Shown here piece by piece: positions 10,368-60,515 of a DNA stretch of 64,000 nucleotides (its first letter is position 1; the number at the start of each line of letters is the position of its first letter). Made by a program: the position numbers and the translations under genes. The notes under the pieces were generated by a model. It ran no database searches and was not told the origin of the DNA. It was given only the letters and a program-made list of their open reading frames with translations. This stretch comes from Liolophura sinensis (Eukaryota > Mollusca > Polyplacophora > Chitonida > Chitonidae): positions 19,379,764 to 19,443,763 of the forward strand of contig NC_088306.1 of assembly GCF_032854445.1 (NCBI RefSeq), written 5' to 3'.

Positions 10368-13300
10368 CTGCAAAAAAAAAAAAGCATGGTGGTCACTATA
10401 ATTCTTCAACATTTTTGCACATCTGCAAGGTGTTTATGCAAGCATATTCTGAAGCCATTATTCTGTGTAAATTATTCATTTTGTGAAGCCCTGAACAAAG
10501 GGCCAATCAAATCAATGTAGTTTCGCCTCCAAAATCAAATTCTAAACATGCATAAATTGCACTAACATTTTTCTTACATACATGTATGTGAAAAGAATGT
10601 TGAATTAGGGAATGGGTTTATTTATCTGTTTGATTGGTGTTCAGGGTTTTCATTTGGTAACTAGAGCTCAAAAGTAGGCGACTGAACTGAAAAGTCAGTG
10701 TAGTCAAAATAGGTAGTTTCAACTTTCTGCAGATCTACTTGCCCTTTTTGAACACCCTGTGTGCTTAATGCCACACGAAAGTATGGTTTGTTTTAATGAT
10801 GATGATGATTTTGATCATTGTTTAATGGCGTAATAATAATAAATATAATAATGGTTTAGTGATGAAAATTATACCAAAAGTTTTCTCAAGAAAAAAAAAA
10901 AGTCAACAATATGAGACTGTTATAAATTGTGTAAATGACTTGCAGTAAAGATAATTTCCATTAATCCATTTGCAAAAGCCAATGTTAAATGTGACAAAAT
11001 GTGATAATGTTAAATGCAAAAATACATGCAATCAAAATCTCCTCCAAGCATTTGAGAAAATTCATTAATATGCACAGGTAGTAACTGTTGGTCTAATTAC
11101 CTCTAGCAAACTGATGTGTAATAAATAAATGAGGGGGGCTTCGTGGCCAAGGCAGTTAGCACTCCAGCACGAAGCAATGACCCAGGAGCCTCTCGCCATA
11201 GCTGTCATTCAAGTTCAAGTCCGCCTCATGCTAGCTTCCTCTCTAACCATATGTGGGAAGGTCTGCAGCAACCTGCAGATAGTTTTGGGTTTTCCCCAGG
11301 CTCTGTTCTGTTTCCCCCCGCCATAATGCTGGCCACAGTCATATAAGTGAAATATTCTTGAGTTGGGCGTAAAACACCAATCAAATAAATAAATAAGTAA
11401 ATAAATAAATACAATGAATGAACGATTAAGTAGGTATAGGGATGTATCCAGACAACCACTGTCCACCTACATGTACATGTGGGCCTCGTGCTGGCTTCCT
11501 CTCCAGCCGTACGCGAGACCTACGTGGCAACAACCTGCGGATGGTCGGTGGTTTCCCCCTGGCTGTGCCCGGTTTCCACCCACCATAATGCTGGCCGCCA
11601 GCGAAAGTGAAATATTCTTGCGTACGGAGTACAACACCAACCAATAAAAAAATGAATAAATACACTTGGGCACAACCCTTAACATCTACATGTATGCATG
11701 GCGTTATTAGCCCCTTACCTGGACCTTTGAGACACAAAAGTCTTTCACCCCTGGCTCATAAAGTTCCACGCAGGGGTCGTGCTTGTCCTTCCGAGGTTTG
11801 AACAGGTTCCTGGTGGCCGGTTGGCCTGTGTAGTTCAGCATCTTCACTAAAGTGACCTTGTCAATGTACTTGCTGGTCAGACCGGCACGGATCACATTGT
11901 CAGAGCATGCCATACACTCCATACAATCTGCAAATACACAGAGGATATTGCATAGTGATGGATGAATACTGTAAATACTGTCTGAGTGAGAGATGGAAAT
12001 CAATATTCATGAGACGCGGCAGTTAAATGATAATCCATGAGACGCGGTAGTGAAATGATAATCCACGAGATGTGGCAGTAAAATGATAATCCATGAGACG
12101 CGGCAGTGAAATAATCCACGAGACGTGGCAGTTAAATGATAATCCATGAGACTCGGCAGTGAAATGATAATCCACGAGACGTGGCAGTAAAATGATAATC
12201 CATGAGACTCGGCAGAGCAGGGCTTTGTGATCTGGTCCCTAACTGTGTGAAATATCACTTTAATTGATGAAGGAAATTGAGGTATTTCACAATTACATAA
12301 ATAATAAAAAACAAATACAAATATTGTACATGCAAGGGGGACACATTGACGGGTTCTGGTGAGAGATATTGTTATCAATGAGAGATAATTCAATGCACTA
12401 TTTCATTTTCTTGATTATAATTGTATAACATTTCATTACCTGAATTTCCATACAAAGTAATACTGTATTGCCATATGTGTCCTTGCACAGTGAAATTTCT
12501 TTTCCCACACGTCTTTGTGAAGTAATATTTCAATAAACTACATGTACGCTTCCTCTACACTTTTGATAATATTATTTTACCCGACATTTTCTTTATGATA
12601 GGGTGTTTTTTTTTTTTTACCACACTGTATATTCCCCATCACGCGTGTTTTGCTTTGATCGACTAATACCTATTGCCATACATGTGCACAAAAACATTTC
12701 ACTGATATGACACTTAGTGTCATGACTGGAGGAAACCACAGTCCCCTGAGTATAAAACCACTAACATTTGGAAAGTAACTGACGAACATGAACACGCCGA
12801 ATGAGCTCTATTAGTGTAACTGGAGCAGCTTTCCATTGCTTACACTAAATGTAGCTGGTAGAAATTTGCCTTTAGCTCAGTTGGTGGAGAGCTCAACTTT
12901 AGCTGCTGGTACCCGTGTCTGAATTCTGGTGTCATCCACGAAGTGAAATCCTTCAACCATTACGTGTATGTGCGGAATCGGTTGAAAGCAAGAAAATCTC
13001 GAAAGAACTTCATGTAACACCACCTGAGTCGTACAAGACAAAACAAGAATTGCTGCATGTGCATTTTAAGCATGTGGAAGATTAGCTGGTGTCCTCAACT
13101 GTGAGAACCATGTGTCCTTCGGAGACAATGCTCCCCCTCCCCTTCCCCCATCACTATCACCTGCACCCCTAAGAAAAGCCCCCTGACTTACTGCCAGACA
13201 AGCACGGGGCAGATTAGCCACTGTCCTCTCTTGTGAGAACTATATGTCCTTCAGTGACAACGTCCCCTCCCTCACCACTATCACCCACAACCCTGAGACA

Positions 13301-16300
13301 AGCCTCCTGACTTACTGCCAGACAGGTAAGCATGTGGAAGATTAGCTGGTGTCCTCACTTGTGAGAACCATGTGTCCTTCAGAGACAATGCTCCCTCCCC
13401 CCACCCTCCCACTATCACCGCCACCCCTAAGACAAGCCCCCTGACTTACTGCCAGACAGGTAAGCATGGGGCAGATTAGCCTCCAGGAACATGGCTTGTC
13501 CAGGCTGAAGCTTCATTAGGTTCAGAAAGTAGGCCACAAAACATCCAATATCCCCAGGAAACTCGCGGTGTAACTTCAGCAGGATGTCCCCGACAAACGG
13601 TGACGTGTCCCCTTTGTCCTCTTCTGTTAAAAGAAAAAAACAACAAATATTTGTCACTCTAATTTTTGAGGTGGAAAAAGACCTTAAAAGCTACATCCAT
13701 TTTTTTCCTGACAGAATTAGTATCCCTATAAATCAACTTTTAATCTTGAATTTATGCCATGGGATATACCGTATTAGAAAAACATAATATCACCTGTGCA
13801 AAAGGAACTGCTTGTCAGTCTATATCTCAGAAGGCAGAGCAGGGGTCGTGTGAGGTCACAGTGAAAACAGGTGCATTCTCAGTCTGTTGAAATGACTTAG
13901 GTCTGATAAGTTAAATACCTCCATTCCTGCATTTTTGCTCACTTTGAAACTGTTATACAGTTGTACCTCCATATACACCACAAAATTATACATCAGTAGG
14001 TTTTCCTTTCAAACATTGGATTCTGGGGTGGGGGGATAGGGGCTAGTGTCTTCCACAATTATTTATTCGCTTATTTTACCTATTGATGTTTTACGCCGTG
14101 CTCAAGTCTATTTCACTTACATGATGACAGCCAGTATTATAGTGAGAGGAAACCGAGTATAGCCCAGGAGAAACCCATGGCCATCAGCAGGTTGTGTCAA
14201 CAGCCTGATAGAAATCCAGCATGAGGTGGATTCACAGTGACCGCATTGGTGAGAGGCTCCTGGGTCATTGCACCGCTCTGGCACCCTAGCCACTTCTCAA
14301 AGAAACAGAGGGTCAGAAGCACAGCTTTACAACTTTTGATGTTTAGATGTTTTCCTCCAGCTTTTGATTTTGATTGTACTTTTTCATTTCCACTGGCTAA
14401 ACCATGAGAAAATAAGACGTCTAAACATTCACCGATCTGCTGAACTTTCCCCACAAGTTTGCCCAGTTCCTCTTTAACGGCATCTTGATCCTGGTTCATC
14501 AGAGAGTTAAAGCACTCCTTCATGGCCTCTCTATGGAATGGCATGTCCATGGTGCGGCTCGCAGCAATCAGCTTCAAAGTGTACTCGTTCCCCACGGCTG
14601 CCCGCAGCTCTGGTATTGCTGCAATATAAGTCATAAAATCTCCTCAAAACTCAACCATCAGCTTCAAAGTGTACTCGTTCCCCACGGCTGCCCGCAGCTC
14701 TGGTATTGCTGCAATATAAGTCATAAAACGTCCACAAAACTCAACCATCAGCTTCAAAGTGTACTCGTTCCCCACGGCTGCCCGCAGCTCTGGTATTGCT
14801 GCAATATAAGTCATACAATGTCCTCAAAACTCAACCATCAGCTTCAAAGTGTACTCGTTCCCCACGGCTGCCCGCAGCTCTGGTATTGCTGCAATATAAG
14901 TCATAAAATCTCCTCAAAACTCAACCATCAGCTTCAAAGTGTACTCGTTCCCCACGGCTGCCCGCAGCTCTGGTATTGCTGCAATATAAGTCATACAACG
15001 TTCTCCAAACAGATATTAGCTTCAAAGTGTGCTCTATACAAACAGCTGCCCGCAGCTCTGGTATTGCTGTAATACAAGCCATAAAAATTCATCAAAAATC
15101 AACCATCAGCTTCAAAATGTACTCAATACAAACAGCTGCCTGCAGCTCTAGTATTGCTGTAATACAAGCCATAAAATGTCATCAAAAATCAACCGTCACC
15201 TTCTCATTAGCGTTCTCATTACTGACGACCTCTGGCATTACTGCAATATAAGTCATAAATTATCCTCAAAAATCAGCAATTTTCAAATTCTGTGTGAATT
15301 TTTACAGTGCTGTATTTCACACAAACTTTGGTATGTAATTTATTTTATTTATTTATTTGATTGGTGTTTTACGTCATACTCAAGAATATTTCATTTATAC
15401 GATAGTGGTCAGCACTGTGGTGGAAAGAAACCAGGCAGAGCCCGGGTGAAACCCATGACCATCAACAGGTTGCTGACAGATCTTCCCAAGTACAGCTGCA
15501 CAGGAAGCCAGCTTGGTGACAGGCTTCTGCGTCATTATGCTGCACTGGCGCGCTAGCCCCCTCGGCCATGCAGGCCCCATTTGGTATGTCAAAATGCACT
15601 TTCAGAAGCACATAAAGGTGTTCAAATGATACTGTTGATGCCAACACTTGTGTTTCTCTGATAAAGAATTAATCAAACTTCACAAAAAATCTCTTGTGTC
15701 CCTGTAAGGCCAAACAATTAACCAGAATGAAGCAAAATATGTCACTTGCAAAGGGCCAAGCTTTAGGTCAACTACAGTATTTGTATCAGGGTCAGAGAAG
15801 ACTGCTGTTGAGGGCCCAGAGGGTTGGGTGCCCATCCAAAGCTAAAACAACAGATGCTGTATAACTTATACCTGTTTACTAGCACATTTTTTATCTTACT
15901 TTTTAATCGTTTTATCTGTTTTCTTGATGAAGCAAATTAAATTTTCAAATTCTGTGTGAATTCTTACAGTATCTGTACCATAGTCAAAATGATATGGCAA
16001 CAGATTGATTTATTTATTGATTTTATTGGTGCTTTATGACGCACTCAAGAATATTTCACTTATACGACGGCGGCCAGCATTATGGTGGGTGGAAACCGGG
16101 CACAGCCCGGGGGAAACCCACAACCATCCGCAGGTTGCTGAAAGACCTTCCCACTTACGGCCGGAGAGGAAGCCAGCATAAGCTGGACTTGAACTCACAG
16201 CGACCGCATTGGTGAGAGGCTCCTGGGTCATTATGCTGCGCTAGCGCGCTAACCGACTGAGCCACGGAGGCCCCATATGGCAACAGATAACAAGGTGCCC

Positions 16301-19300
16301 ATTAAGAGCATTATCGGGATTTCAAATGCGGAAAGCAGTCAAATCAAAATGTCATCACACAAAACAACCCAAACTGAAGTGTCAAAAGAGTCCTCCTCAT
16401 TGTGACTGTATTTCAATTAAAAGTTTGATATGCAAAAAATGGACTTTCAGAAGAACATAAATTAAAGCCTTAAAATAAGTTTTTGATGCCAACACTTTTT
16501 TTTCTGATCAACACAACAAGTTTTTCTGATAAAAAAATAAATCTAACTTCACGAAAAAAAAAAAAAAAAAAATTGTTATCAGGTGGAGGAATCAATCAGA
16601 ATCCAGCAAAATGTGCCACTGGAAAGATTAGAGAACAGTGAATACCTATCAAATCAAAAATCAGTTACATGTATGTGCATACATTTACAAACAAACAAGA
16701 TGACATATATATGCAGAGAGATTGTGCCAACTATCTCACTTACTTTCCAGGAAGTTAGCCACCTGTTTGATCGGTCTGAACCCACACAGGCCCTGGAATG
16801 GCGTGAGGGCGATGGCCAGCTCTGGTTTGTGGTTAGCATCTTTGTACAGGTCAGGCCGGGCCTTGTGGAGGGCTTCAGCTTGAACCTGGAACAGTAGAAG
16901 TTAAAAAATTAGTGTCCAGATTGGTGATTTATTCATAATTAACTACCCCTGTATACACTGTTAAATTGAGTGTAAAAAAAATTATTGGAAAAAAGTACAG
17001 TAGTCTGAGTAATATGGCACTAACATCACTAGTTAATAAGGCTGGGTTTATGTATCTTTTCTGCCAACACCCGGTAGTCTCCGTCAAATGAAGTCCAACC
17101 TTTACGAGCTATCAGGGCCTCATCATTCAGTCCAGTATTAAAAAGCCACACGTGACAACAAGCATGTATCTGCATACAGTTGTAAAAATTCAATCTGACA
17201 TACACACAAAAAGTAGACCTCCAGTGTAACACAGGATAAAACTGCAGCTTACCAGCCCGTTTTTGCCAGTGCGCTTGGAAATACCTGGACAAAGATCAAA
17301 TCCAACGTCTGAAAACTGTCATAAATCATAACCTAAAGTTGTCCACTCTAATCGATACAGCAGTATATTTGCTTCTGTGTAGCTAGAATCCATCTTGAAA
17401 ATAACATCGTTTTGATACGCATTCCCAGGTTATATAGGCCAGCTAGACTTGGGTTGGCCATCTATGACATAATCCACAGAGCTTTTTTGGGTGGCCGACT
17501 GGAGATCTGCTAGGGTAGTAACCGTGTTGTTTTTGTTGGATTTAAAGTCATAATTACACTTCTCAGAGGCTCTCCTGGTAACATACTGTTAAACAGGTTA
17601 TAATCTTTATACTTAGGACAAGTAGCTAAATCTGAAAACTAATCCTTTAACAAACAATGGCATAGGTGTGCCCTAGTGGCAGAGCATTAGTGTTGTGAGT
17701 TGGAGACCTAGGGTTTTAACAATCTGGTGTAAAACAAAACACACTTTTCAAAATTTAATGTTAACAAATTATTATACAACTTCCACGCTGCTTATGTTTT
17801 ATATTATTAAACATTGTGACAAATGTGCTGAATAAGTTTCATATTGCACATCACTATTAGCAACACTCATAAGGCACATTGTCATTGTCTTAGTATGTCA
17901 ACTATTGACACTGCATTCTTTCTCAATGTTCATTTTCTTGCGCCATTCATAAATATATGTAACAAATTTTACTACTGTACATTTTACTTGCCAAGGTTCA
18001 TTTTCGGCAAGTAAGTTTACTCAATTTTGCTCCCCACTTGAATTGTGCAATGTTTGGTGTATTACATATACACTGGTTAATGTGGATGGGCAAGCTGATT
18101 CAAGCTATGCAAAAACAGAACAAGTTCACATCAGCCTGTATTCATTCAATGACTTATAATAATTGATACGGCATTTATAGTGTCACAAGACTGTGATTGG
18201 GTGAGGTGTCCAGTACACCTTTCCAAAATCTTGGTCTTGTTGAGAAAAGATAAATCTTAAAGAAAGATCTCTATAAGTACAGTATGTCCAACACCTGACC
18301 TCCCCCATTTTCCCACCTTCATGCGCATGGCTGCATCAAAAACATTAACTCAATATTTTCTGGAAGATGACATTGAGAGTCCAATATTTCATGTTTGCAC
18401 TTTGTGTAGAACAAAGATGTGTACAGCTCGATGATAAGGGTAAAAAAAAATTATCAATACATAAAACAGTAGTGCCCAAAAAATACACCTGTCCACGATT
18501 GTCGTCCCTAACACGCAAACTGTTACAAGATATTTCACAAGGTAAAATACAGATTCATCAATCATGGCTTATCTGCAAATCGTTCACTTAAAACTGCAGA
18601 CCAGACATTTATGTATTTATTTGTTTGATTGGTGTTTTACGCCGTACTCAAGAATATTTCACTTATATGACGGCGGCCAGCATTATGGTGGAAGGAAACC
18701 GGACAGAGCCCGGGGAAAACCCACGACCATCCACAGGTTGCGGAAAGACCTTCCCACTTACGACCGGAGAGGAAACCAGCTTGAGCTGGACTTGAACTCA
18801 CAGCGACCACATTGGTGAGAGGCTCCTGGGTCGTTACGCTGCGCTAGCGCGCTAACCGACTGAGCCACGGAGGCCCCTCAGACCAGACATGGATTCACCA
18901 AGACCAAACCACGACTTCAGGGAAGTCAGGTCTTGGGCATACTGTTTGCATGTATGAATGTATGCATGATTTGGGTTTTATATCATACTTAACGATTTTC
19001 CAGTAATATGGTGAGTAGATCGGTGCGTGCATATATACTATGTCTTCTTATGGCAAGGTGAGCCAAAGAGCCCCTGAAGTATCATACCAATGACACCCCC
19101 ACTCAGTCATATAATATGGACACCAAGCCAGCCAGTCCTGCTTTTTTACTCTAACCTCTAAATGTTGCGCACCATGCGAGGCAGCAACAAGTGCCATTTT
19201 TAACGTTTTTGGTACTAGCTAACCCAGGATTGATCCCAGGCCTCTCACCTTTCTCTACACGTTGCTGGTGCAAGAAAGGTTAAATTTACCTTGTAAGTGA

Positions 19301-22300
19301 TACTTGCCTTATTAGGGTGTGTCTGTATGGACAATGACGTGTTCACAGAGAGCACCTTAAACAAGAATGGCAGCTGACCATCAAACTCAGCCTTAACTTT
19401 GTCTCCTAGCTGGTCTGGATGTTTCCTTATCCAATCACTGAGTAGCATTTCCTTGCCATCAGAGAAGACTGCTGTTGAGGGCCCAGAAGGGTGGGTACCC
19501 ATCCAAAGCTGAAACAACATAGACTGTATAAGTTGCCCGTTTACTATCACACTCAACTATAAATTCTTAATCTTTTTATCTGTTTTCTTGATGAAACTGA
19601 AAGAAGAACATATGCATAACTAAATGGGAATGCCAACCTTTAAAAGAATGTAGGAACAGATGATATTTTTACACATTTCAAACATAAACAATCTGACCTT
19701 TAATTCATTTCAATCTTAAACACCAGAATCCCGGATATGTATGGCGCTAATACTTGTGATTTTGTTTTACACTTGCACAGGTTGCCTGGAGTTTTTCAAT
19801 GTATCCAACTAATTGTGGAAAGGAGCCAGCTGCACGTACATGAAGTATGTAAGTTTTGCTTGGGTCCTGTTTAAAACCTCATTATCGTGAACTGATCAAG
19901 TTTAAATAGGAATACATCTGTCCTGAAAAAAAACACTTTTCATACCTTTTCAACTTCAACACCAAGAGTCTAAGAATGGGTTTTAAAATCAGTATTAAAA
20001 TTCAGTAAAAACTGGCTTAATGAAATCAAACTAGAGTCCAGGAGAACCAAGACTGCCAGCTGAAATGCCTAATGCCTGACACAAGCATGGGTATGCTCTG
20101 TTTTCTACATGTTGATAGGGTTCAGTTCTTCATGTAGCCTAAATGACGTCCAAAAAAAGTCCATTTTAAAAAGCAAATAATGTCCTAAAATATTATATTT
20201 GGTGCTGAAACTTACAATTTTCCCATATTTATTTATTTACTTATTTGACTGGTGTTTTACGCCGTACTCAAGAATATTTCACTCACACGACGGCGGCCAG
20301 CATTATGGTGGGAGGAAAACGAGCAGTGCCCGGGGGAAACCCACAACCATCTGCAGGTTGCTGGCAGACCTTCCCACTTAAGGCCCAACTTTTCAACAGA
20401 GTATCATCCCATGTTCTAAACAAATATCACAACACCTTTCTAAAATGAACAGAACTCCCCAAATTTAGAAAAAAAAAATCCATGCTAGTCATGCACGAAA
20501 ATTCACTGTCATTTAGCCTACATTACTTCCCAATGTTTAGATTTTGTGTTTATCAACACGCGCAGATTATACACACGTCACAGGAGAAACCAATACAGTG
20601 CAGATATATGCCATGAAATGAATGTCATATCAAGTTCATGTGAATGGAATCAGAACAGACATCATTTCAAGGTCGGCTGAATTTCAAACAAATTACAGGT
20701 GCCAAATAAAATGATCTAAAATAATCGACACAGTGTATGAACATATTTTATTGTTGTTTTGTTCATGTATAGGAGAGTTACAGGGAACTGACACATTTAT
20801 TTATTTGATTGTTGTTTTACACCGTACTCAAGAATATTTCACTTATATGACGGCGGCCAGCATTATGGTGGGAGGAAACAGGGCAGAGCCAGGAGGAGAT
20901 TCACGACCGGAGAGGAAGTCAGCATGAGCTGGACTTGAACTCACAGCGACCGCATTGGTGAGAGGCTTCTGGGTCATTACGCTGCACTCGTGCCACAGAA
21001 GCCAAAACAATCTCCAATGATAGCTCCATGTACGCTGAATCCAAAACAAACTGTGAATCCTTGTGAGAAGTTCTACATGTACCTCCACTTGGAACTACAT
21101 CTCCACTGAGAACTACATGTAAATCTCTGGAGAAAATCTCCTGTGAAACTACATTTCCATTGAGAACCACAGGAGGAACTATACGTACATCTCAAGTGCA
21201 CCTTGAACTACATCTTCCACTGAGAACTGCATGCTCAGTGAGAAATGTATCTCCACTGAGAAGCTCTACATATACATCTCCAGTGAGATCTACCTCCACG
21301 GAGACCTACACATACTGAAAACTGCATCTCCACTGAGAACTACATGAACATCCCTAGTGAGAAAAGTATCTCCACTGAGAAGTTATACATGTACCTCCAC
21401 TTGGAACTACATCTTCACTGAGAACTACATGTAAATCTCTGGAAAAAATCTCCTGTGAAACTACATTTTCACTGAGAACCACAGGAGGAACTATTCGTAC
21501 ATCTCAAGTGCACCTTGAACTACATCTTCCACTGAGAACTACATGAACATCCCTAGTGAGAAATGTATCTCCACTGAGAAGCTCTACAAGTACATCTCTA
21601 GTGAGATTTACCTCCACTGAGACCTACACATACTGAAAACTACATCTTCCACTGAGAACTACATGTACATCCCCAGTGAGAAATGTATCTCCACTGAGAA
21701 GCTCTACATATACATCTCTAGTGAGATTTACCTCCACTGAGACCTACACATACTGAAAACTACATCTCCACTGAGAACTACATGTACATCCCCAGTGAGA
21801 AATGTATCTCCACTGAGAAGCTCTACATATACATCTCTAGTGAGATTTACCTCCACTGAGACCTACACATACTGAAAACTACATCTTCCACTGAGAACTA
21901 CATGTACATCCCCAGTGAGAAATGTATCTCCACTGAGAAGCTCTACATATACATCTCTAGTGAGATTTACCTCCACTGAGACCTACACATACTGAAAACT
22001 ACATCTCCACTGAGAACTACATGTACATCCCCAGTGAGAAATGTATCTCCACTGAGAAGCTCTACATATACATCTCTAGTGAGATTTACCTCCACTGAGA
22101 CCTACACATACTGAAAACTACATCTCCACTGAGAACTACATGTACATCCCCAGTGAGAAATGTATCTCCACTGAGAAGCTCTACATATACATCTCTAGTG
22201 AGATTTACCTCCACTGAGACCTACACATACTGAAAACTACATCTTCCACTGAGAACTACATGTACATCCCCAGTGAGAAATGTATCTCCACTGAGAAGCT

Positions 22301-24921
22301 CTACATATACATCTCTAGTGAGATTTACCTCCACTGAGACCTACACATACTGAAAACTACATCTCCACTGAGAACTACATGTACATCCCCAGTGAGAAAT
22401 GTATCTCCACTGAGAAGCTCTACATATACATCTCTAGTGAGATTTACCTCCACTGAGACCTACACATACTGAAAACTACATCTCCACTGAGAACTACATG
22501 TACATCCCTAGTGAGAAATGTATCTCCACTGAGAAGCTCTACATATACATCTCTAGTGAGATTTACCTCCACTGAGACCTACACATACTGAAAACTGCAT
22601 CTCCACTGAGAACTACATGAACATCCCTAGTGAGAAATGTATCTCCACTGAGAAGCTCTACATATACATCTCTAGTGAGATCTACCGCCACTGAGACCTA
22701 CACATACTGAAAACTGCATCTCCACTGAGAACTACATGAACATCCCTAGTGAAATGTATCTCCACTGAGAAGCTCTACATATACATCTCTAGTGAGATCT
22801 ACCGCCACTGAGACCTACACATACTGAAAACTACATCTCCACTGAGAACTACATGTACATCCCTAGTGAGAACTGTATCTCCACTGAGAAGCTCTACATG
22901 TACATCTCTAGTGAGATTTACCTCCACTGAGACCTACACATACTGAAAACTACATCTCCACTGAGAACTACATGAACATCCCTAGTGAGAAATGTATCTC
23001 CACTGAGAAGCTCTACATATACATCTCTAGTGAGATCTACCGCCACTGAGACCTACACATACTGAAAACTATATCTCCAGTGAGAGCAAAAGTCTCACTG
23101 GTCATCCCAGATTCAAATGATATACCCAAATTTCTCAACCTTTTCACACATAAACGAGCAACTTTCATTGCAATTTATCCACCTTTTTCATTTGATTTTG
23201 GAGACAAAACTACACTGGTTGGGTTGGCCGATTGCAGGGCTTCACAAAAAGCATAATGCCCTCAGAATATGTTTAAACAAACAACCTGCAAACATGCAAA
23301 AAGGTTAAAGAATTACTGTAAACACAGCATATATGAACACACGTTTAATACATTTTTTACTGTACAAGGAAACTACTACAGGACGCTTCACCAAACACAC
23401 AGGTACACAGTTTTACAATGTAGCTGTGTTATAATGTACACAACTGTTATCATAAAAATGTTGTACCAGCTGCAGTATTGATTCTTTCTCTGCTGATCCA
23501 GCCCACGTGTATGATCCCTTCACAGAGCACAGCAGTGCTGTATATGTCAGTGTACTTTTGTCAGAAAGCGGTCTAATATTTCAGTGAACAAGCAAATAAA
23601 TGAAAATTTAATACCAGTATTTTTGTCATACCTGGTCCGTTTTTTTGACCTGCTGGACCCTGATTAAACCCGCAGTAGATTGCACAAGAAATGCTTATAT
23701 TATTCTCATGCTGTTACTTTGTAACCGTATTATAGGTCCTGGCACAAAGGAAGAGTCTAGCAAAAACTGGCTACCATCATGTCAACGTCGTATATATGGT
23801 CTAAATAAGGACATATATGATGAAAGTTTCATAAATTTGTATCACATCTGTTATATTTAGAGTATACATAATTAATTTATGCATTAGATTCCTATTACAC
23901 CAAGAGGTGGTCCCAAACATCAAGCACATTGCTCTGGACTGTCTTGTTACAGGCGGACATTTAAAAGTTCTCCATTACCACCTGCTGGTTAACATCAGCA
24001 GAATGACTTACATAAGCTGGCGATATCTCTGATAATCATACTTTGAAAATAACTGTGTTCAGAATAAATACAGACAAGCATTTATTTTATCGAAGCCACT
24101 TAGCACCATATCCGAATAGAAGAAAACAGACCTAGAAGCTCTTTTGGTTTTTAAAAGATGTAAATTCAACAAGGTGTCCCCCGTAATGCTTATTCATGAA
24201 ACTCTGCTCTTTCTCCACAAGAACTGGAATGAGAACTTTCATTGCACATCAGTTTCATCAGTTTTCAGATGATGGGTGGAGAAATATAGGGCAGAGGGGG
24301 AATCTAGAAATAAAAATTTTGACCTCCTCATTAATACTATCTGAAGACAAATGTGTCAAAGTTCCAGTGTGAGTAGCAAACAATAAGCATTGTGACAAGA
24401 TTTTAAATTTCGACTGGTCAGAAATAGCCTTGAGGAAATGGTCACTGACGTGTATGAATTGAGGCAGTGTAGCCTTGTCCTTCCCGAAATGTTAATGAGG
24501 CCCACACCATTCTTCAACATAGGGGGTGCAATCATGTGGCATGTATATATAATGTGGGCCCATACCATACCTCTGCATAGGGGGTACAGTCATCCACCAC
24601 AAACCCATGGTCGCCACTTTCTGCCAGAGATGCCACTTCACTCTCGCGACCATACTTGCCCCAGGCATACTTCTGCACCGAGCACTTCAGCTTGAAAACT
24701 GTCAATGTAAGGATTACAAGAGTTCCATGTAACATGATGATGCCACAGTATGGGTTTAAATTAATTATGATATCTTCATCAGGGTTTAATCCACAGATTT
24801 TGGGAAAGGCCCTGTGGGCCCGCAACTAGGAAAATTTTCAGTACCAGGGAGTTGTGATTTTTCAGTACTGTGTACTGCACAGTTAACTGGTATTTAACAG
24901 AGATCATATACCTTGAGTACA

Positions 24922-24973
<52 letters not shown>

Positions 24974-29900: not shown

Positions 29901-30022
29901 TGTAGCCTCTGGCCTTGCATATTAGAAATGCGGGTTAGCTCAAACTTGCAGTGTCCATAGTAACTACTAAGGCACGTCACTTCTTATTTTGTCTCCAGCA
30001 GGTACTACCAAACTCTGGTAAG
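26951..30022. promoter_or_regulatory. Divergent MPI / ENOX intergenic region
   Basis: The start codons of MPI (minus) and ENOX (plus) face away from each other across about 3.07 kb. No TATA box stands out near the MPI start. Two ATGGCG elements, resembling YY1-type promoter motifs, lie at 28064-28069 and within AACATGGCGG at 28091-28100. A good 5' splice site (CCCAGA/GTAAGA) at 27900/27901 could end a non-coding ENOX first exon. All of this is inference; no transcript evidence is available. Confidence 0.45.
29230..29326 (-). mobile_element. SINE family A head fragment
   Basis: Only the tRNA-like head survives: CATGAGCTGGGCTTGAATGA, GCATTGGTGAGAG, and CTAACCACTAGGCCATGGAG. It is diverged. Confidence 0.75.
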
Positions 30023-30119
30023 ATGGATAGGCCATTGGAATTTAACATGGACAAGATGGGGCGGACAATTTCGCTGGCTGGTAATGGGAAAAAGCAGGAC
30101 CGTGCTCACCAAGCTCAAG
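30023..30119 (+). CDS. ENOX1/ENOX2-like: ENOX exon 1 (first recognised coding exon)
   Basis: Encodes MDRPLEFNMDKMGRTISL through DRAHQAQ. The exon is preceded by a CAGCAG double acceptor (ending at 29998 or 30001) and ends CAAG/GTAAAC in phase 1. Codons VLPNSGK upstream of the ATG are in frame, so an earlier start in an unseen exon is possible. Confidence 0.7.
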
Positions 30120-33100
30120 GTAAACACATGGTTTCAAACAGGTGGTAGTGTCCTTGAATTGTAGAGTTTTTTTTTTCCCTTGTTTACTTTAAATCATACA
30201 CATACATGTAAATGATGTAACTTTTTGACCATAGCAGACTATGGTACTCATTCTGCCTGATTCTGAATTCCATGCATCGCGGCACTCCTGTTTCCTTTAC
30301 CATGATCATGAAATTAACCAACAGTCACTGCATAACTGAAATATTCTAAAGAACAAATTTTATAAATCAGTCCAGCACTGAGAGACTAGAGCAAGGAAAC
30401 AAGACTAGTTGGTCTGGTGTCAGTAGAATGTGGCTTGGTGGGGTATCATGTTTGGTGTCTTCGGCATGATACCTCAGTGGCAGCAGCACTTTGATGGCAT
30501 GGACTTGCCCTATCACAAGCAGACATGGTACATGTACACACACCTAATGACTCATCGTCATATGACTGAAAGATTGTTAAGTATGACATAAAACCCCAAG
30601 CATACATAAATGCCAGCGGCTGGTTTCATGAAGCTGACTTAGCTAAGTAAGCCCTTTACTACCATGGCAACATATATTGTACAGATATAAAGTGTTCATG
30701 GCTAAGGGCAACTTAACACAAAGTAAGCTTCATGAAACTGTACCCAGTCAGTGAGTCTAATAATGTGGCGTATAATGTATGTATGTATGTATGCGTACTT
30801 TAATTAAATTTAATTCCTCAAACTTTTTGCTGTTGAAAGAGCAACTTTCAGTGCAATTTATGTTTGTTGTTAATTTGATTTTGGAGGCAAAGCTACATTG
30901 GTTGTATTGGTAAATTTCAAGGCTTAAAAGAAAGATCAGTTTTATCAGTCTACACAGAATGATGCTCTTAGAATTTGCTTGAATAAACACCTTGCAAACA
31001 TGCGAATATGTTGAAGAATTACAGTAATATTCTTTTACTGACAGATGTCTCCACCTCCAGCGATATTCACCAATCACACATGTCAGGTGGGGACGGAATG
31101 ATGCAGCCGCAGATGATGGGCATGATGGGTGGGCCAATGGGAAGCGGACCCATGGGGCCTATGGCTGGACCTATGGGAAGTGGGCCTATGGGGGGAATGG
31201 GCTACCCTGGAGCAATGAATATGATGACCCCAGACCCCAGCATGATGATGATGGGGCCTATGGGAGGAATGGGGTTCAACCAGGTAATTTGTGAAAAGCT
31301 GGTTTAACTTGCAAAAAAAAATAAAATGTTTTTATAAAGCCATCACGTTTTCACGGCTAGTTAAGCTGCCTAGTTTTAACTCACTTCTCTGTTAAAATTT
31401 TCATATTTATCAGCCACTCATAGTGGAAGAAATTTTGTGACACATTTGATGACATGTGCCTAGTGTTCCTGTGTAACCTATTTGAGAGCTTTCTTGAGGA
31501 CATCTCACCTGACAAACTGTAGTTTTCCTTGAATTCACAAACCTCTTATCTTCTCACCAGTTTCAGTCCAGTATCTACAGACTCATTTGCCAGGTACTCG
31601 GAATGGTTCACTATATTATCACTCGTCTTGGCTATAACTGCTTTCCACATTAAAACCAAATGGATGCCATATTATGCAAAAAGCCTTAAACATATTGATA
31701 ATTGCAACATAAAACAGGAATGAAATAGTTACACAAATAAAGACAAAACGTAGGCAAAGATTAATGCATATATTATTATTGTGTATGTGGGAAGGTCTGG
31801 CAGCAACCTGCGGATGGTAGTGGGCTTCCCCCGGGCTCTGCCCGGTTTACCCCACCATAATGCTGGTCGCCGTCGTATAAGTGAAATATTCTTGAGTATG
31901 GCGTAAAACACCAATCAAATAAATAAAATGTATTATTATTATTGTTGTTGTTGTTGTAGTTTGGTGGATACATGGGGCCTATGGGCCAGGGTGTGGATTG
32001 TCCCCCAGAGTTTATCCGTAAGGATGTGATCGAACTAAAGTTTGGGGTCCTGTATCCGCCACCACCAGGTAAATTGTGGTTTTGCTTCTGCATATAGTAA
32101 TGCCGTTTCACTGCACAGAATTATTACACAGGCTTCCCCCTGGGATAAAACTTGCATTGCTGTAAGGTATTTACCTTTTTTAAAAAGCCTTGCGCTAAAG
32201 ATTACAAGCTCTTGATCTGCTGAGTTCTTGGGGTTACGCAGACAAGCCTGACTACTGTCCTACAAGGAAAATGTATGGATAGATGTCGTAAAACGTGACT
32301 GAAATACAGGGATGTTTGTTAGTTGATAAGTTGATTGTTAACTCGATGATTCCATAGTGAGCAGATTTTGCTTCAGAAGACAGTCTGACTGTGTAGATTG
32401 TGGGGATTGTGTAGATCACTAAGACATTTCCCCATGTGCCTCTCCCCTAAGTTTGTCGTAATGCTGCGTTTTATATGGCCATACATGCATCTGTAACTTG
32501 TTTCAGCCGCAGCTCTGCGAGTACGGGAAAAGGTCTGCCAGCAGCATGTGGATGGTCGTGTGCTTCACCAGGTCTCTGCCTGGTTTCCTCCCACCATAAT
32601 GCTTGCTGCCGTCATTTAAGTGAAATATTCTTTAGTGCGGTGTAAAACATCAATCAAATAAATTAATAAATAAAAGTTTCAGCTGTGGCTTTAAGTTGCC
32701 ATGTTGGTCCCTGGTTTACTCCTTTCGTTGTACTAAAAATAATGTTAAAAATGACTTTTAACCCAAAGCACCCATAAAATCCAGCAGGAAATAAATTGAT
32801 AAATGTACAAGCCATGTGTACTTCATGCTACACGAATCTCTGTCACATTTGTTTAGGAGCGCCACCTAGAAGCAGACGAGAGAAACCACCAGGATGTCGG
32901 ACTATTTTTGTAGGAAGCCTACCCGAGGGAGTTACCGAAGAAAATATTTACGAAATCTTTGAGCGCTTTGGAAACATTCTGTCAGTACGGCTGAACAAAA
33001 ACAACTATTGTCACATACGATACGAGTTCGAGGACTCCGTAGAAATGGCTCTTCTTCTCTCAGGTAAGACTAACTTACCTAGTTACCTGTGGGTACATTT

Positions 33101-36100
33101 GCAACCATTATTTAGGGGTATCTGGTTTTGCTTCGTAAGCCACATATTCAGAAATATTCTGCAGTTTTTCACACCAAGAGAGCATGTATTCAATTCGCGA
33201 TGAGTGCCAATCTGTTCACAAAGTGTCATCATACATCGTGCATGATGAATTGTAGAAAGTCTAGCAGTGGTGAAGAATCGTTTTTAAAAATTGCTGGATT
33301 CAGACCTGCGTGAGCACGATAATGAAATTAATTGCTGCACGTGTGCCAGGGCCAAGCTGTGCACAAAATCTCATCAAATTCTGGGTGCATAATTATTTCA
33401 CGAATGTACAGACATTTGATAAAGGCAAGAGTTTATCCAAAATTTACTGGATTTAAACAAAAATGAAGAAAAATGTAGGCATTTACCACATTGACACAGG
33501 CGTACCATAACCATAGCAAATGACCTGAAATTTCACCCCAAAAGCACAATTTTAGATGCAGTAAAATGTCAGAAAGTACAATATTAAACCTGTGGCAAAT
33601 GACGTAAAATTCACCAAAAAGTTTATCTTTGAAAGCAAATAAATTTCATGAAATATGAAAACTGTGGTAAATGATCTAAAATTTCACTCCCCAAAAAGTT
33701 CAGTTTTAGAGACAAATAAATGTCATAAAGTACAATAACAATGGTAAATTACTTCTTTTAGGCAAAAGTAAATGTCATATAATAGTATTTTCAGTGCTGA
33801 AATTAACATTGGATATCATTCTAGTTTCGAAATGAATTTCACAACACTTTTCTGAGATCAGTAGAACCTTGAAGATGAGACAAAATGTGCAGCACAGCCA
33901 TGGGTGATATTCTAGGTCATTTAGCGTGTAAAGCCTGCAGTGAAAATCTCTTGAATATGTGACTTTGATGATCTATTGTTACACGGGTATCACATCCTAG
34001 ATCACACATGCTGTTGTAGGTTACACCCTGAAGATTGAATCTGATGGTGACGCTGTCAAGAGCAAACATATCCACGTAGACTACGCTCAGGCCCGTGACG
34101 ACCAGTATGAATGGGAGTGCCTACAGAGGGCGCTAGCTAGAGAGAACCGGCATCGGCAGCAGATTGAAGAAGCCATGCTCCGCCCACCTAGCCCACCTCC
34201 TGTGCTCAGATACTCGGAGTATGAAGCACAGATACTCCTAGAGAACTTGAAAAGTGAGTAAAATTACATCATTGGCTGAGTATGTAGTAGTGTTAATAAT
34301 GAAGTCTGAATTCACAAGTGTGCGAGAATCAGTGTACATATATATGATGAGATAAGTTGCGTTAGTGCCTTCTGTCAGACTACTGCATTTCATCTAAGGT
34401 TTAGCATTTTTCAAGTGACAAATTTTTGTTTGATTCTGATTGACTCATCCGCCTTTTATAGGACGGCTTAAGAGTTTTTGTTTTGAATTTTGATTCATAT
34501 CTTATCAGAAAAACTTAAAAGGTTTTTACACACACCTTTTTTTATACCCCTCTCAGCGAAGTTAGAGGGAGGTATACTGGAATCACCCTGTCTGTCCATC
34601 TGTTTGTCTGTCTGTAGACATGATTTTGTCCATAAGTCTTCTCCCAAACTACTGCACCAATTTCGATGAAACTTACTCTACATCTTACCTATCATCTGAA
34701 CTTGTGCATGTTTAAGTTTAATGGCAGCTGAGTAATTATTTTTGTGATTAACCCTCTTTTAGGACCTGAGGACTATAACAGTGACCATATATTTAGATTT
34801 CCTTGATGTATCAGACGTACAATCAGTGCACACCACAAATGGCATATAACAATCTATATGAAGCCAATCAAAGCAACATCATGTCATTTCTTTTAAGGTT
34901 TTCTTAGTTTTCTTTCTGTTATTTCTGGAAATGTTGGGGGATAGAAGCGGGATATTTCGTACATGCAGATTCTAGTTTGTTATGTTAATAGATGAAACCT
35001 TTTTTATGTGGGTTTGTCATAGGCTGGCACCTGCCATTTGTTTTCACGCAAAGGCAACTGCTCTTTGACACCTATTTGCAGTATCCTAATTCCTCAACCT
35101 TTTGGCAAATGAAAGAGCCACTTTCAGTGCAGTTTATGCACATTTTTAATTTGATTTTCGTGACAAAACTGCATTGGTATGATTGGCCAGTTTCAGGGCT
35201 TCACAAAAAGTACAATTTTTATCAATCCACACAGCATAATTCCTTCAGAAGAGTCTTGAATGAACACCTGGTAACTTAGTAGTCGTGTCTATTGCTAGAT
35301 GACGTCACTTGTTTTTGTCATGTTTTTGTTAACAGGGAACACTCGTATTAACATATTTATTGCTAAATGACACTGGTTTTTATATTTGTCACTGAAGGAC
35401 ACCTGTTTTTGTCTTGATTGTCATCAAATGACACATTTTGACACAAACCTGCTTTATCCCTAGATGATGAGACCTTCATGCAGAGCTCCAATACACTGTT
35501 GTCGTGGCTGACTCGTGGCGAGTGTAGTCGCAAAAACGCCAACGTTTTCTACAGTCTTATCCAGACAACCAATGCCCATGTGCGGCGATTGCTGACTGAG
35601 AAAGAGAACCACGAACAAGAGATTGAAAACATGAAGGCGAATTTCCGCCAACAGATCCAAGGAATCTTGCGACAATGTAAGTGTGTCATTCAGTGTCTGT
35701 GTGTGCATGTGACAGGTCTTCGTGAGTCATGTACAGGAAACTGAGGTCATAGGAGCTGCTGGATGAATAAAAAGCACAAAGCTTTCCTCTTCTAAATTCC
35801 TGAAAATCTCTGAACATGAACTCGTACAACAGAATCATGGTAAATCTCAAAGAGGAGTACGACCTTCCGTTGTCAGAGGTTGCAGGTCATCAGAGGATAA
35901 GATAAGCTTTATTAAAGTACCTTCCATTGGACCGGTCTCACATAAATCATACATGTATATTGTAGATGTTCATATGGGGGGATCACATGATCATGTGACA
36001 CTCTATCTGCTCAGACTCAAGGGCCAAGAGGTAGTTTTGTTATTTAAATGTACTACTGTTTCCAAGGTTTGTTCCATTGAAGTTGAGGCAATGGTGATCC

Positions 36101-39100
36101 TGTTAAGGCTAAACAGGTGAAATACAGGTAGAGCATATATGTAGGTTCATTGTTTTACCTGAGATTGGTTTTCTGTCCAAACTTACATGTAGTATACATA
36201 AGTAAAAGACAAGAAAACATTGAAACTTTACCTATAGGCAAATCGTGATTGCTGATTTTGTTTGTAGATATAACAGAACATTGTTTAAAAAAAAAAACAG
36301 CTAGCTTCTGAGTTGAAACTACCATTAGGCTATAACTGTAGAGCACATAGATTTGCAGTCACTTTGGCCACAGCAACAACAAAAAGAAAACAAAAAAAAA
36401 AAAAACTTTTGGTATCATATTTGGACACCTAACCGTCCAAACAACAGTATTATCTTCACCAGATTTTGAGTGGCCAAAGAAGCAGTGCTTGGCCCAGTTT
36501 CACAAAGCACTATTAACATTACATTCCTTGACTACCCCAGCAACCAGTAGGCATTACATCGTCATGGTAGTTGCGAGCCTGTAACGTTAAGAGAGCTTTG
36601 CCTGAAACTGAGCCTGATCATTTTGCGTCCTGTGTTATTAAATTTACCAAGACAACATGTGCATGTATGTGAAGGGCTGCTAATAAGTATTCTGACCAAA
36701 AGTGTCAGTATTAAGGAAATATCCTTTGGTGTTAAACCACATCAAGAAGATTGGACAACAACTCGTTGGCAGCAGGAAGCAGTCTGACTGCTGATAAGAG
36801 CGGGTGACTTCTTGTCAGAAATGAAGGCATGTCATCCTTCATGGCAGCGGGCAATGTCCTAGCCCCCTCACTTTTGTGTCTTGACATGTACATGTATTTG
36901 TGTACAATCAGCTTGATTTGATTTGGCTTTCAAGAGCAGTGCTTTTAGGCAATCATCCTCATGCATAAAACAGTGTGAAGCAAACAGGGATTGTGCTTGA
37001 CAATGAGATAGCACCAAATTAACTCTCTGGAGCTAACTCTCCCATTTAAATGTACAGGTGTAGTATACTTCAGTAGGTCTCAGTAGTTTCAGGCCTCCAA
37101 AACTAACCTGGTGACGTCATTGCAGCTGTCATGCGACAAGGGAGGTAATTCAAGGAAAGCCTGTTATTGATTGATTGATTGTTGTTTTACGCTGTACTCA
37201 AGAATATTTCACTCATACGACGGCGGCCAGCATTATGGTGGGTGGAAACCGGGCAGAACCCGGGGCAAACCCACGACCATCCGCAGATTGCTGAAAGACC
37301 TTCCCACTTACAGCCGGAGAGGAAACCAGCATATCCTGTTATTGAAGTACAGGAAGCTAAACCAGTGATGGGATTAAAACCTACCTACAAGTATACACTA
37401 TTGGTTTTTGCAAAAAAGTGTTATTGTTATGAGCTAAAAAGGTTATTTTTCTTGTTGTCCAAAATTAATATAACACGTACATGCACATATCAAAATTTAA
37501 AAAAAAAAAAAAAAAAAAATTAGCATAATTTTTTTTCTCAGGATACATGTACCCCAAAAATTACAGGTTGACGATATTCTGAATGGTCAAGATTTATGGG
37601 TATGGTCAAGAGTGCTTGTGAAGCAAACCAGTGGTTGACCTAGCATTTACCCTTTGCATGCAAGTGAACGGAACGTGTTAAAATGTGTATGTGGTTGGTT
37701 GTGAGCTAGTGTTCATGGTCTTCCTATACATACTAAACTCTCTTGTCCGTATACGCCAGCGTCAGATGTCTCCCACACAGTGTAAGACTTCAATTCTACA
37801 TGTACAGTTTTGTTTCTTGTCTTCAAGTTGAACACATAGAGAGAATCTTTTCCGAGGCTCAAAAACAGCGGGCATCCGACCACTTCTCAAAGGCTCAGCG
37901 CAAGAGCATTGATGTCTGGTGCAAGCAGATTCAGGTAGGTGGTGAGAGCGCTGCTGTCTTTACTGAAGCTGTGACTAAGAGTTTGTAACACATCAATGTC
38001 CCGAAACTCCCGGGGTTGTGTGTTGGACAAGACTGACCTGACTGAACAAAACTGGCATGGACAAGAAGAGAAACACAAAAGAAAATCACTTTTGATCAGG
38101 GTTGAATCAGTGTGGTGGCTAAGATCTCTTGGAAACTTTTTTGCTATTCTTTTTCAAATTTATCACCAGGATTCACTCACTAAAAGTTTCATGGCGACTT
38201 TAATACTTAGGCAAGATTGTTGCGCAAAAAGAGAAACAAAAAAAGATTAGCACACTTTGGTTAAATGGTGCCCAAGAGGGTCATCAAACATCAAGATGTG
38301 CAGTACAGAAAAGTTTTTTGGCATCTAGCCAGTAAATCAGTAATAAACTGGATAGCTGTTTTCAGTGCGCATGAATGAGATTTCATTGCTGCGATACAAA
38401 CAAATCTTCATGACCATGTTAAAGCCTTGTGACCATTGGCATTTACACACAGCAAAATCTGTGTATTTTGAGACTTTACAAGGGTTCAGCAGTTTCAAGT
38501 TAAAAAATTGGACTGGAGTTGAATTCTGGGCTGTCGCTGAAGACTGTAATGTTCTACCATAGGCATAAATGATCATAGCCTTTTGTTTATCCCACCTATG
38601 ACAAGTTGCACACATGTACTGAGACACCTCTCGAAACAGCTATCTGGCTTATTTGTCCAGTCAGTATATCAGATCTAATAATGACACAACTTAGTAAACA
38701 CAGCACTGCTCTCTTTCTGGGGAGTTTATCAGTAATATTCATTCTTGACACCAATGTACAAGATGTTAGCACTTTTTGCTGCTTTTGTTTCACTTGGCAG
38801 TTTTGTTGGCAATCCGTCCTCGTCATCTTAAATATGTTGGATATGACGTCTTGATATACTTAAAATTGACCATTAAGAGGAAAAGTGCATTTGGGCTGCA
38901 TCTTGCACATTGGTGAAATGTCTAAAATAGTTCTTGAATGTTCATTTACCAAATATTGAGACACTAACAGTTTGAGGGAATGTTGTGAGTCCTTTTTGTC
39001 CACAGTGTTTGTTATGGGCAAATTGTCCACAATACCCTGCCTTAGCACTTGTAATGGGCCTCAGTTCTCCAATGGGTCCACTATGATAATTTCCACAATT

Positions 39101-42100
39101 GGCCACATTACTTGTTCTGGGCCATGGATTCTGTAATGGGCCATGGATCTTGTAATGGCCACAGAACTTGTAACAGGCAAAACAGTTTTCAAATGGGACT
39201 ACATCGACAATGGGCCACAGTTCTCAAATGGGACTACATCCACAATGGGCCACAGTTCTCAAATGGGACTACATCCACAATGGGCCACAGTTCTCAAATG
39301 GGACCACACCCACAATGGGCCACAGTTCTCAAATGGGAGCCTTTGAGTTTATGGGATTCAAGAAGTTTAAACAAGGTGCAGGTTGAAATAAGTGTAGCGT
39401 AATGCGTGTTAAAATTTGTTAAAGGTGTAGTGGTCAAAAACATATTGATAGGAACTGCACATGTAAGATCACGCATTCTGTAGAAATGTAGGTAAATGCT
39501 AGGAAGAGTGAAGAAAATGATATATCAGGGGTGGAAGTAGACGTATTTTTGGGGCCAAATGCTCCTAAATTTCTACGTTATTAATTCCATATCCCAAGGA
39601 GCCAAATTGGGTATCAAACAGATCATCCGTCCCAAGTTAAAAACAAACATTTCAAGCTCGGGACACCCAGGGCCTATAAACACAGGTTACTGAGGATATG
39701 TATGAGTCATCCGTTACCCTCATTGTGGTACACATTCTATTAGTGTGTATAATATGTGTGCAGAGGAGGTTTGGTAAGTTGTCTGTAATCAAATGAAGAT
39801 CTAATTAAAATCCTGGCCAGGAGTTGGTAAGTTAATACTGTGGTACAGTAAACACATCAGATCATGCCATCCAACCTTTCATGGAGAAAACTGAGTAAGT
39901 ACAGGAGAAATGTCTTTTTGTAAAACATGTATTTTTATTGTCAACCTATATATCTAAGGTGAAACATTTTTTGTTTTTGTTTATGTTTTGTTTTTATATA
40001 TATATATATATTAACAGCTGTTTTCATTTGAATTGCAAGAAACATTTATATTTTCAATATTACTTTATATAATAAAAGTGAGTACTTTTGAAGGCGAATT
40101 GTTAAGATGATTCGTATAAATTTTTTTTGGAAGTTTTAGTTTTTATAATGTTCATCTTCAGAATACAAAAGAATGGAAACAAATTCAGACTTTTCCTGTT
40201 TAACTCTTAACTAAAATCTGTTTCACAAGAGTTTTTTTTGTTCAAAAACATGGCTTACAAAAGTAGAATTCCATGGAAACATACTAGATGTTGAATGTAA
40301 TGTAGGTTGTTGGTCTACAGGAAATCAAACAAGTTGAGCAAGACAAGTTCCTGTCTGATCGCCATGAGGACGAGATGGAAATGTCCGACACTGATCAAGA
40401 TGATGATCAAGAAGGGCCAGCCACCAAACGCAAGAAAGTCGATCAGGGTAAGATGGTGTTGATTTTGGGGGGTACCAAATCAGGGCATCATAACACAATG
40501 TCATCAACACAGCATTTACGACTGAATGTCAGCTTTGTGATACTAGCCACAGATAGACATCTTTGTAAGTTCTTCCTATATACAGGTAGTGTGTTTGATC
40601 ATTCAGGAACAGTTGTCTTGAATATCCTAATTCTGTGTATATGAGTTACGCAATTGCTGTTTAAAATATTGTCTGCTCGAGGTACAAAAGCTTGTAACTT
40701 TTGATTTTATTGCTGGTGCTATACCTGCAGCATCGTTTTCCAGTTATTTGTTGAAAAAGTGACAACTTACCCAAACAGATAATCTATATATTTATTTGGA
40801 CAGATTATGAAGAATCTACATCAAAATGATATGAAGTCTCTTTTTTTCACCAAAACACTATTTTGTGGCTGTTTTCCTGTGTTTTCCCCACAGGGTCTCA
40901 GCATGAGTTGTATCGACTACGCGATGAGAATGACTCTCTGAAGTGCCAGCTTGAGGCGTACAAAAATGAGATCGACATCATGAAGCAGGATCTGCAGATG
41001 CAGCTGGCAGAGAAGGACAAGCAAATCAAAGTGCTGCAACAGGCACTGCAGGGCATGCAACAGGTGAGCCATAAGCTGAATAAGGTGCTTTAACAGGCAC
41101 TGCAGGGCATGCAACAGGTGAGTCACAAGCTGAATAATGTGCTACAACAGGCACTGCAAGCCATGCAACAGGTGAGTCACAAGCTGAAGAAGGTGCTTCA
41201 ACAGGCACTACAGGGCATGCAACAGGTGAGCCATAAGCTGAACAAGGTGCTGCTTCAGGCACTGCAGGGATTACAACAGGTGAGACAAAAATAGTTCAGG
41301 GTGCTGGAACAGGTGAGTCACAAGCTGAACAAGGTGCTGCTTCAGGCACTGCAGGGATTACAACAGGTGAGACAAAAATAGTTCAGGGTGCTGGAACAGG
41401 TGAGTCACAAGCTGAACAAGGTGCTGCATCAAGCACTGCAGGGATTACAACAGGTGAGACAAAAATAGTTCAGGGTACTGGAACAGGTGAGTCACAAGCT
41501 GAACAAGGTGCTGCTTCAGGCACTGCAGGGATTACAACAGGTGAAACAAAAATAGTTCAGGGTGCTGGAACAGGTGAGTCACAAGCTGAACAAGGTGATG
41601 CTTCAGGCACTGCAGGGATTACAACAGGTGAGACAAAAATAGTTCAGGGTGCTGGAACAGGTGAGTCACAAGCTGAACAAGGTGCTGTTTCAGGCACTGC
41701 AGGGATTACAACAGGTGAGACAAAAATAGTTCAGGGTACTGGAACAGGTGAGTCACAAGCTGAACAAGGTGCTGCATCAGGCACTGTGTGGCTCATAGGA
41801 AACTTGTGCAGCTTGTACAACAGCTACCAGATTTTGCACATATATTTTATTTAAATGCAAAAAGCTGTATAATTATTACAGTCATATAGGGACTTTATGG
41901 CTTTACGTGCTTTCACTGTGTGTGGTGTTTTGGTGACTACAAGTGGTCCGTGATTCTAGTGTGTCCTTTTGTGCTGTCTGATATTGCAGTCTAATATTGT
42001 CTGACTTGTCTTGTCTGTCCACCATGTCGGTTTGTCATGTATGGGGAAATTCTTCAGTAACTTGCCAAAGGTTGGTGGTTTAACCCACTAGCACTCCACT

Positions 42101-60264: not shown

Positions 60265-60515
60265 TATTTTGATGGCACGAAGCGATGGCACGATGGCAGG
60301 AAGCGATGGTACGATGCTAACATCATCGCTTCGTGACATCGCGCCTTCGCATGTTGCCATTGTGTCATCGCAACGTGCCATCGCTTCGTGCAATCGTGCC
60401 ATCGCGTTTTGCCTTGCGTCCTGTCATCGCTTTTTGCCATGCGTCGTGCCATCGCTTCGCATTATCGTGCCATCGTTTCGCATCATCGTGCCATCGCCAT
60501 CATTGCCGGACGATA
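60265..60515. repeat. Self-complementary CATCGTGC-type array
   Basis: Degenerate repeats of GCCATCGCTTCGTGCCATCG type. The first 50 bp are in the opposite sense: GCACGAAGCGATGGCACG at 60275-60292 is the exact reverse complement of 60374-60391. A stable hairpin is possible. Confidence 0.85.

Follow-up and report, generated by a model that had tools for sequence, protein, structure and literature searches.

Tandem arrays lie across exon-intron boundaries in two neighbouring genes, ENOX and MPI, of the chiton Liolophura sinensis, within a stretch of 64,000 nucleotides (contig NC_088306.1 of assembly GCF_032854445.1, positions 19,379,764 to 19,443,763; hereafter, the window). The locus raises the question whether duplication is directed to splice junctions, whether the multiplied splice sites are maintained for a function, or whether local duplications merely happen, now and then, to include a boundary. 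The first-pass annotation of the window had placed such arrays at the ENOX exon 9 donor, the MPI exon 5 acceptor and the MPI exon 6 donor, along with a dispersed copy of the MPI exon 3 acceptor. Gene models and Tandem Repeats Finder (TRF) bear out all three arrays as real and as located at true junctions, and the dispersed copy is likewise real, forming one gapped local alignment with its source (19595-19459 against 15931-15792). Junction arrays of this type are a real and common feature of the chiton genome, of a known kind but in a new phylum.

The ENOX model, on the forward strand, consists of the 11 exons found between positions 30001 and 43129; when joined, these form an open stretch of 526 residues, with the start left open, and the product contains Pfam ENOX1 and RRM_1 domains above cut-off. 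The array at exon 9 holds 16 CAG/GTGA sites (the slash marks the exon-intron boundary), that is, one authentic site and 15 decoys, and additionally nine weaker AAG/GTG sites. Read-through past the authentic donor meets a stop after nine codons, such that one weak AAG/GTG site precedes the stop and all 15 CAG/GTGA decoys lie beyond it. Scored with a generic donor matrix, eight of the 15 decoys exceed the authentic site (12.0 versus 10.4), six equal it and one is lower. Position, not strength, would therefore decide at exon 9, provided that the authentic site is the one used.

MPI, on the reverse strand, has eight exons, from 26950 to about 10130, and a product of 429 residues, of which the 267 from exon 5 onward were tested; these contain two PMI domains above cut-off and match the PMI structures 1pmi and 5nw7 (E about 5e-34). 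Upstream of the exon 5 acceptor, the array contains six decoy acceptors, each with at least 60% identity, and use of any of the six leads to a stop 21 to 51 codons on. At exon 6, read-through past the donor reaches a stop at the eighth codon, ahead of both decoys. Given that use of the 15 decoys in ENOX and of the six and two decoys at MPI exons 5 and 6 would bring an in-frame stop, the normal protein needs the exon-proximal site in each case, and the decoys of the three arrays presumably play no part in making the main product. The two products are continuous, with one intron per site, so that no new intron is apparent at the ENOX or MPI arrays, as judged without outgroup comparison. Elsewhere in MPI, intron 3 has a GC donor (AAG/GCAAGT, window 19308), after which the frame joins exon 4 correctly, and in intron 2 about 13 copies of a 119-bp unit, with 97% matches, form a tandem array (window 21518-23085).

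When the genome (632 contigs, 609,464,459 bases) was searched with the units of all three window arrays, each matched its own locus only, in a search that skips very common words; a dispersed mobile element as the source of the arrays was rejected on this ground. Whether three hits among the 35 junctions of the two gene models exceed coincidence, as the first-pass annotation had it, depends on the null. Chance placement peculiar to an array-rich window would agree with a null based on array coverage, under which 4.5 junctions are expected to be hit (rotation P 0.76). That null was set aside, arrays being expansions of local sequence, and seed-unit and control-point nulls were used instead: a junction that lies within the repeat units must already have been part of the seed unit, which makes the seed-unit null the proper one. 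With six arrays, each of its own unit length, placed at random within the two genes, 0.44 (simulated) to 0.48 hits are expected, and the probability of at least three is 0.005, in a test picked after seeing the data. Because this test is post hoc, the verdict was left to the rest of the genome.

Exon edges were sampled there in two rounds. Four Pfam families supplied the 287 exon matches of the first sample (myosin head, 81; CCT, 50; kinesin, 132; class I aminoacyl-tRNA synthetase, 24), and these matches were extended by 450 bp on either side and merged into 212 regions; 180 random regions, with 241 matches and 482 edges, were analysed. The second sample comprised 20 SNF2 regions (44 of the 58 matches, 88 edges), chosen by coordinates, mostly as clustered exons, with the sequence still unseen. 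The AMP-binding family was left unused: seven of its 18 matches span nearly the whole domain in one open frame, which implies few introns. Automatic splice-site calling, which yielded 225 sites only, was replaced by match edges combined with reading by eye. This reading covered the edges flagged by TRF, that is, overlapping an array or located at most 60 bp from one, and not each of the 570 edges, and the total of 570 is itself an upper bound on true junctions, some edges being domain ends or matches that overrun introns.

Arrays spanning a junction were recognised at 22 of the 570 edges (3.9%, or about 1 in 25). Donors account for 17 of these (out of 285) and acceptors for five (out of 285), a difference with P 0.017 in which some calls are borderline. 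The first sample contributed 14 donor and four acceptor arrays; the second contributed three donor arrays, among 44 donor edges, and a two-copy acceptor array. With two borderline acceptors added, the split becomes 17 to 7 (P 0.06); if four rows in which the array reaches just about 8-10 bp into the exon (L021, L065, L194 and L197) are left out, 15 donors and three acceptors remain. The retention of these four rows is not fully consistent with the removal of L006, which has a 10-bp overlap. The other rows dropped were L101 and L114, where the true donor lies upstream of the match end, both the donor and the acceptor of L125, where the match overruns or the case is borderline, and L099, a duplicated exon in the same gene as L153. 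The array units, about 26 to 140 bp long, combine exon and intron sequence and form head-to-tail repeats that run from the authentic junction into the intron. The array edge inside the exon lies at no fixed distance from the junction (estimated at about 9 to about 90 bp). In the kinesin gene represented by L153 and L099 (C11:27412533-27415280), a second copy of the exon end lies about 1.7 kb downstream, and the two have similar donor arrays; here a junction array is included within a larger tandem duplication, possibly on the way to an extra exon.

When the sampled rate of 22 in 570 is applied to the window, 1.35 hits are expected (P for at least three, 0.15). The window's three of 35 are thus an ordinary draw from the genome, and junction arrays are a genome-wide feature, no accident of the window. 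The recurrence of like structures elsewhere weakens the reading of the window arrays as a local accident, which we regard as quite improbable. That the arrays are an assembly artefact is barely conceivable, and no supporting point was found: the copies differ from one another, the pattern recurs at 22 sampled edges, and the published Liolophura japonica assembly, according to the portion of its report consulted, was made from PacBio HiFi reads (mean length 8,347 bp, 14X) that are longer than the arrays (PMC11068029).

A more general suggestion of the first-pass annotation, namely, that duplication may be biased to junctions, is not supported by comparison with intronic controls. In this comparison, TRF was run on windows of equal size, and control points were placed in introns 60-180 bp away, an array being counted in its first unit only. 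Of 546 junction points, 22 were hit, or 17 after five false, borderline or duplicate rows had been removed by eye, and five of the rows read by eye (L021, L041, L056, L077 and L194) were not flagged in this test. The curated 17 of 546, set against 57 of 2381 uncurated control points, give a ratio of 1.30 (95% confidence interval 0.72-2.33), so that a general preference of duplication for junctions is not supported. Taken by themselves, donors are hit at 13 of 273 points versus 28 of 1162 controls (ratio 1.98, confidence interval 0.94-4.22; bootstrap fraction at or below 1, 0.035) and acceptors at 4 of 273 versus 29 of 1219 (ratio 0.62); in the first sample alone, uncurated, the counts are 14 of 231 versus 22 of 987 for donors and 5 of 231 versus 25 of 1036 for acceptors. 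A preference confined to donors is possible. Two further approaches were discarded, a first hazard estimate (15 donors versus 3.0 expected, 5 acceptors versus 4.3), which region ends and long units had biased and to which no weight is given, and a distance profile, which was too coarse.

These donor figures bear on the proposal that donor boundaries are minisatellite hotspots because duplication is directed there, for example, through R-loops, a paused polymerase or nascent RNA bound by U1 close to the 5' splice site. The bootstrap fraction, the excess of donors over acceptors by eye, and the three arrays among the 44 donor edges of the second sample speak for such targeting. However, the confidence interval for donors includes 1, acceptors are not enriched, curation by eye was applied to the junction hits alone, and the array edge inside the exon varies in position. 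We consider donor targeting unlikely.

Another possibility is that decoy donors are selected for a function, either as docking sites for U1, which would aid exon definition or protect against premature intron cleavage, or as a reserve of splice sites. Across 19 donor arrays, including the two in the window, GT is kept in 106 of 113 decoys. In tests that were post hoc, tried in several variants and not corrected for them, on copies that are non-independent within an array, we compared, among decoys only, the homogeneity of the junction dinucleotide with that of the other dinucleotides of the intron part. The junction dinucleotide is the more homogeneous in the first 15 arrays (0.879 versus 0.747, P 0.017), in the 18 arrays that include the second sample (0.877 versus 0.735, P 0.004), with 14 arrays higher and 4 lower, and in the 14 arrays judged to be set at the exon end by protein homology (0.943 versus 0.744, P 5e-5); the three second-sample arrays alone, few as they are, point in the same direction (0.867 versus 0.671). 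In eight arrays with enough exon and intron sequence, the decoy GT stands at 0.95 and the exon and intron parts at 0.76 each. AGGT in intron-only arrays is not specially retained (0.685 versus 0.742; 12 array-strands from 43 arrays). Retention of the decoy donor GT above other array bases is suggestive.

Against a functional role stand, apart from the nature of the tests, the four of 18 arrays with the opposite tendency and the junction-centred profile, where neighbouring dinucleotides are also fairly uniform (0.84-0.89 at -5, -1 and +1 to +3, versus 0.88 for GT). On the acceptor side, AG is kept in 28 of 34 copies, the set of seven at MPI exon 5 including the authentic site, and there is no clear retention effect (0.85 versus 0.72, P 0.18, five arrays). 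The idea of selection for redundant splice sites, already raised in the annotation, draws some support from GT retention, with use of the decoys hypothetical; a function for the decoys seems to us improbable. To the combined proposal, in which donor junctions would be preferred birthplaces of minisatellites and selection would keep the decoy arrays for a role tied to splicing, such as U1 docking, we give little credence; under it, and provided that the sampled rate holds, multi-copy 5' splice sites would be present in thousands of chiton genes.

The junction arrays are probably mirage minisatellites, in which a unit duplicated locally and in tandem takes in an exon-intron boundary by chance. 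Ordinary slippage or unequal exchange would seed such units at any place in a gene, roughly at the intronic rate, and the copies at a junction would survive as long as the exon-proximal copy remains the splice site that is used. In a donor array, the decoys lie downstream of the authentic donor, would be transcribed later and could be ignored by splicing; in an acceptor array, they lie upstream, would be transcribed earlier and would be riskier, such that acceptor arrays may be partly culled. This difference would account for the 17 donor versus five acceptor cases. Three observations weigh against the explanation by mirage minisatellites: donors are hit at about twice the intronic control rate (confidence interval 0.94-4.22), an excess that tolerance alone would not lead one to expect; the decoys retain GT better than neutral copies should; and the seed-unit null is exceeded in the window (P 0.005, post hoc).

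Mirage is the term in use for tandem duplications of exon-intron boundaries in amphioxus, which are described, in the portions of the reports consulted, for globins, Adh3, TnC and PGBD5 (PMC3087553, PMC3902484), PGBD5 and troponin C having been added in the second report (PMC3902484). So far as these portions go, amphioxus mirages are known from single genes and are suggested to be general in cephalochordates and to be possible seeds of new introns. The likeness is close: the amphioxus unit, of 10-160 bp, spans a 5' or 3' exon-intron boundary, many copies retain AG or GT, and the gene alongside is otherwise intact (PMC3087553, PMC3902484). Undisturbed regular splicing and a length that is unstable in somatic cells or from one haplotype to another are further marks of mirages. 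The annotation's view that multi-copy junction arrays had not been described is thereby overturned. In the chiton, the unit crosses an exon-intron boundary in the three window arrays and at the 22 further edges; either boundary can be involved (two donors and one acceptor in the window, 17 donors and five acceptors in the sample); many but not all copies carry the signal (GT in 106 of 113, AG in 28 of 34); and no copies of the three window arrays turned up away from their gene, very common words being skipped in the search. The chiton arrays differ in that they belong to Mollusca, Polyplacophora, are measured on a genome sample and are known from sequence alone.

A literature search of open papers, mostly at the title level, returned no report of mirages in molluscs. 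A minisatellite in a human interferon-induced transcript, presumably 6-16/G1P3/IFI6 (to judge by the topic of a citing paper), reportedly carries multiple splice donor sites (Turri et al. 1995, known to us by its title). By that title, it shares with the chiton arrays a tandem repeat with repeated donor sites; it differs in that the sites are said to be provided to the transcript, whereas the chiton decoys are read from the sequence and their use would bring stops. Variable internal tandem repeats are also described from the exon-intron boundaries of human genes that lie within segmental duplications (PMC2812944); in the portion of that report consulted, these repeats, unlike the chiton arrays, are tied to new introns and to paralogs that differ in alternative transcripts. 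Intron gain through tandem genomic duplication of AGGT-bearing exon segments, as partially consulted (PMC4974935), is similar in that tandem duplication multiplies splice signals. It differs in that the chiton arrays come without a new intron, the frame running from exon to exon with one intron per site; intron gain of this type was rejected for the window arrays, where, as judged from the chiton products by themselves, no new intron inside a former exon was found.

Table 1 Exons, junction arrays and the dispersed copy in ENOX and MPI (positions in the window)
Feature	Position	Strand	Evidence
ENOX exon 9 with authentic donor CAG/GTGAGC	40894..41063	+	frame open through 11 exons; Pfam ENOX1, RRM_1
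Tandem array across ENOX exon 9 donor (41063/41064): 54-bp units, then 87-bp units	41031..41786	+	TRF, decoy list
ENOX exon 10, acceptor 3' of array	42383..42424	+	frame open on joining to exon 9
MPI exon 5 with authentic acceptor at 14618	14433..14618	-	frame; PDB match of product
Tandem array across MPI exon 5 acceptor, 90-bp unit, 8.0 copies (TRF)	14567..15275	-	TRF, decoy list
MPI exon 6 with authentic donor after 13450	13450..13623	-	gene model, decoy list
Tandem array across MPI exon 6 donor, 134-bp unit, 3.2 copies, 2 decoy donors	13067..13480	-	TRF, decoy list
Single dispersed copy of MPI exon 3 acceptor region, inside MPI intron 4	15792..15931	-	local alignment to 19459-19595
Source of dispersed copy: MPI intron 2 end and exon 3 start	19459..19595	-	local alignment

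The window contains several other repeats. Positions 4-4717 are occupied by a satellite array with a 48-bp unit, about 98 copies and higher-order periods, and a degenerate 25-bp array with TTCAGGAACG units and a strong GC and AT skew lies at 52168-54331, outside both gene models. Short GATGGCAC repeats are found at 60271-60497, with the reverse complement close by. An interspersed element recurs at 18910-18610, 16270-16020, 31790-31930 and other positions; its copies, some of which have a tRNA-like head, have a common tail ending in AATCAAATAAATAAATA, and the element resembles a mollusc short interspersed nuclear element (SINE). An Rfam scan of the window gave no match.

At about 4% of the sampled mollusc exon edges, mirages are not confined to lancelets and can be measured. 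A genome of this type would offer many natural experiments on how the spliceosome chooses between near-identical neighbouring sites, and its junction arrays would provide a test of whether such arrays are converted into new introns or exons.

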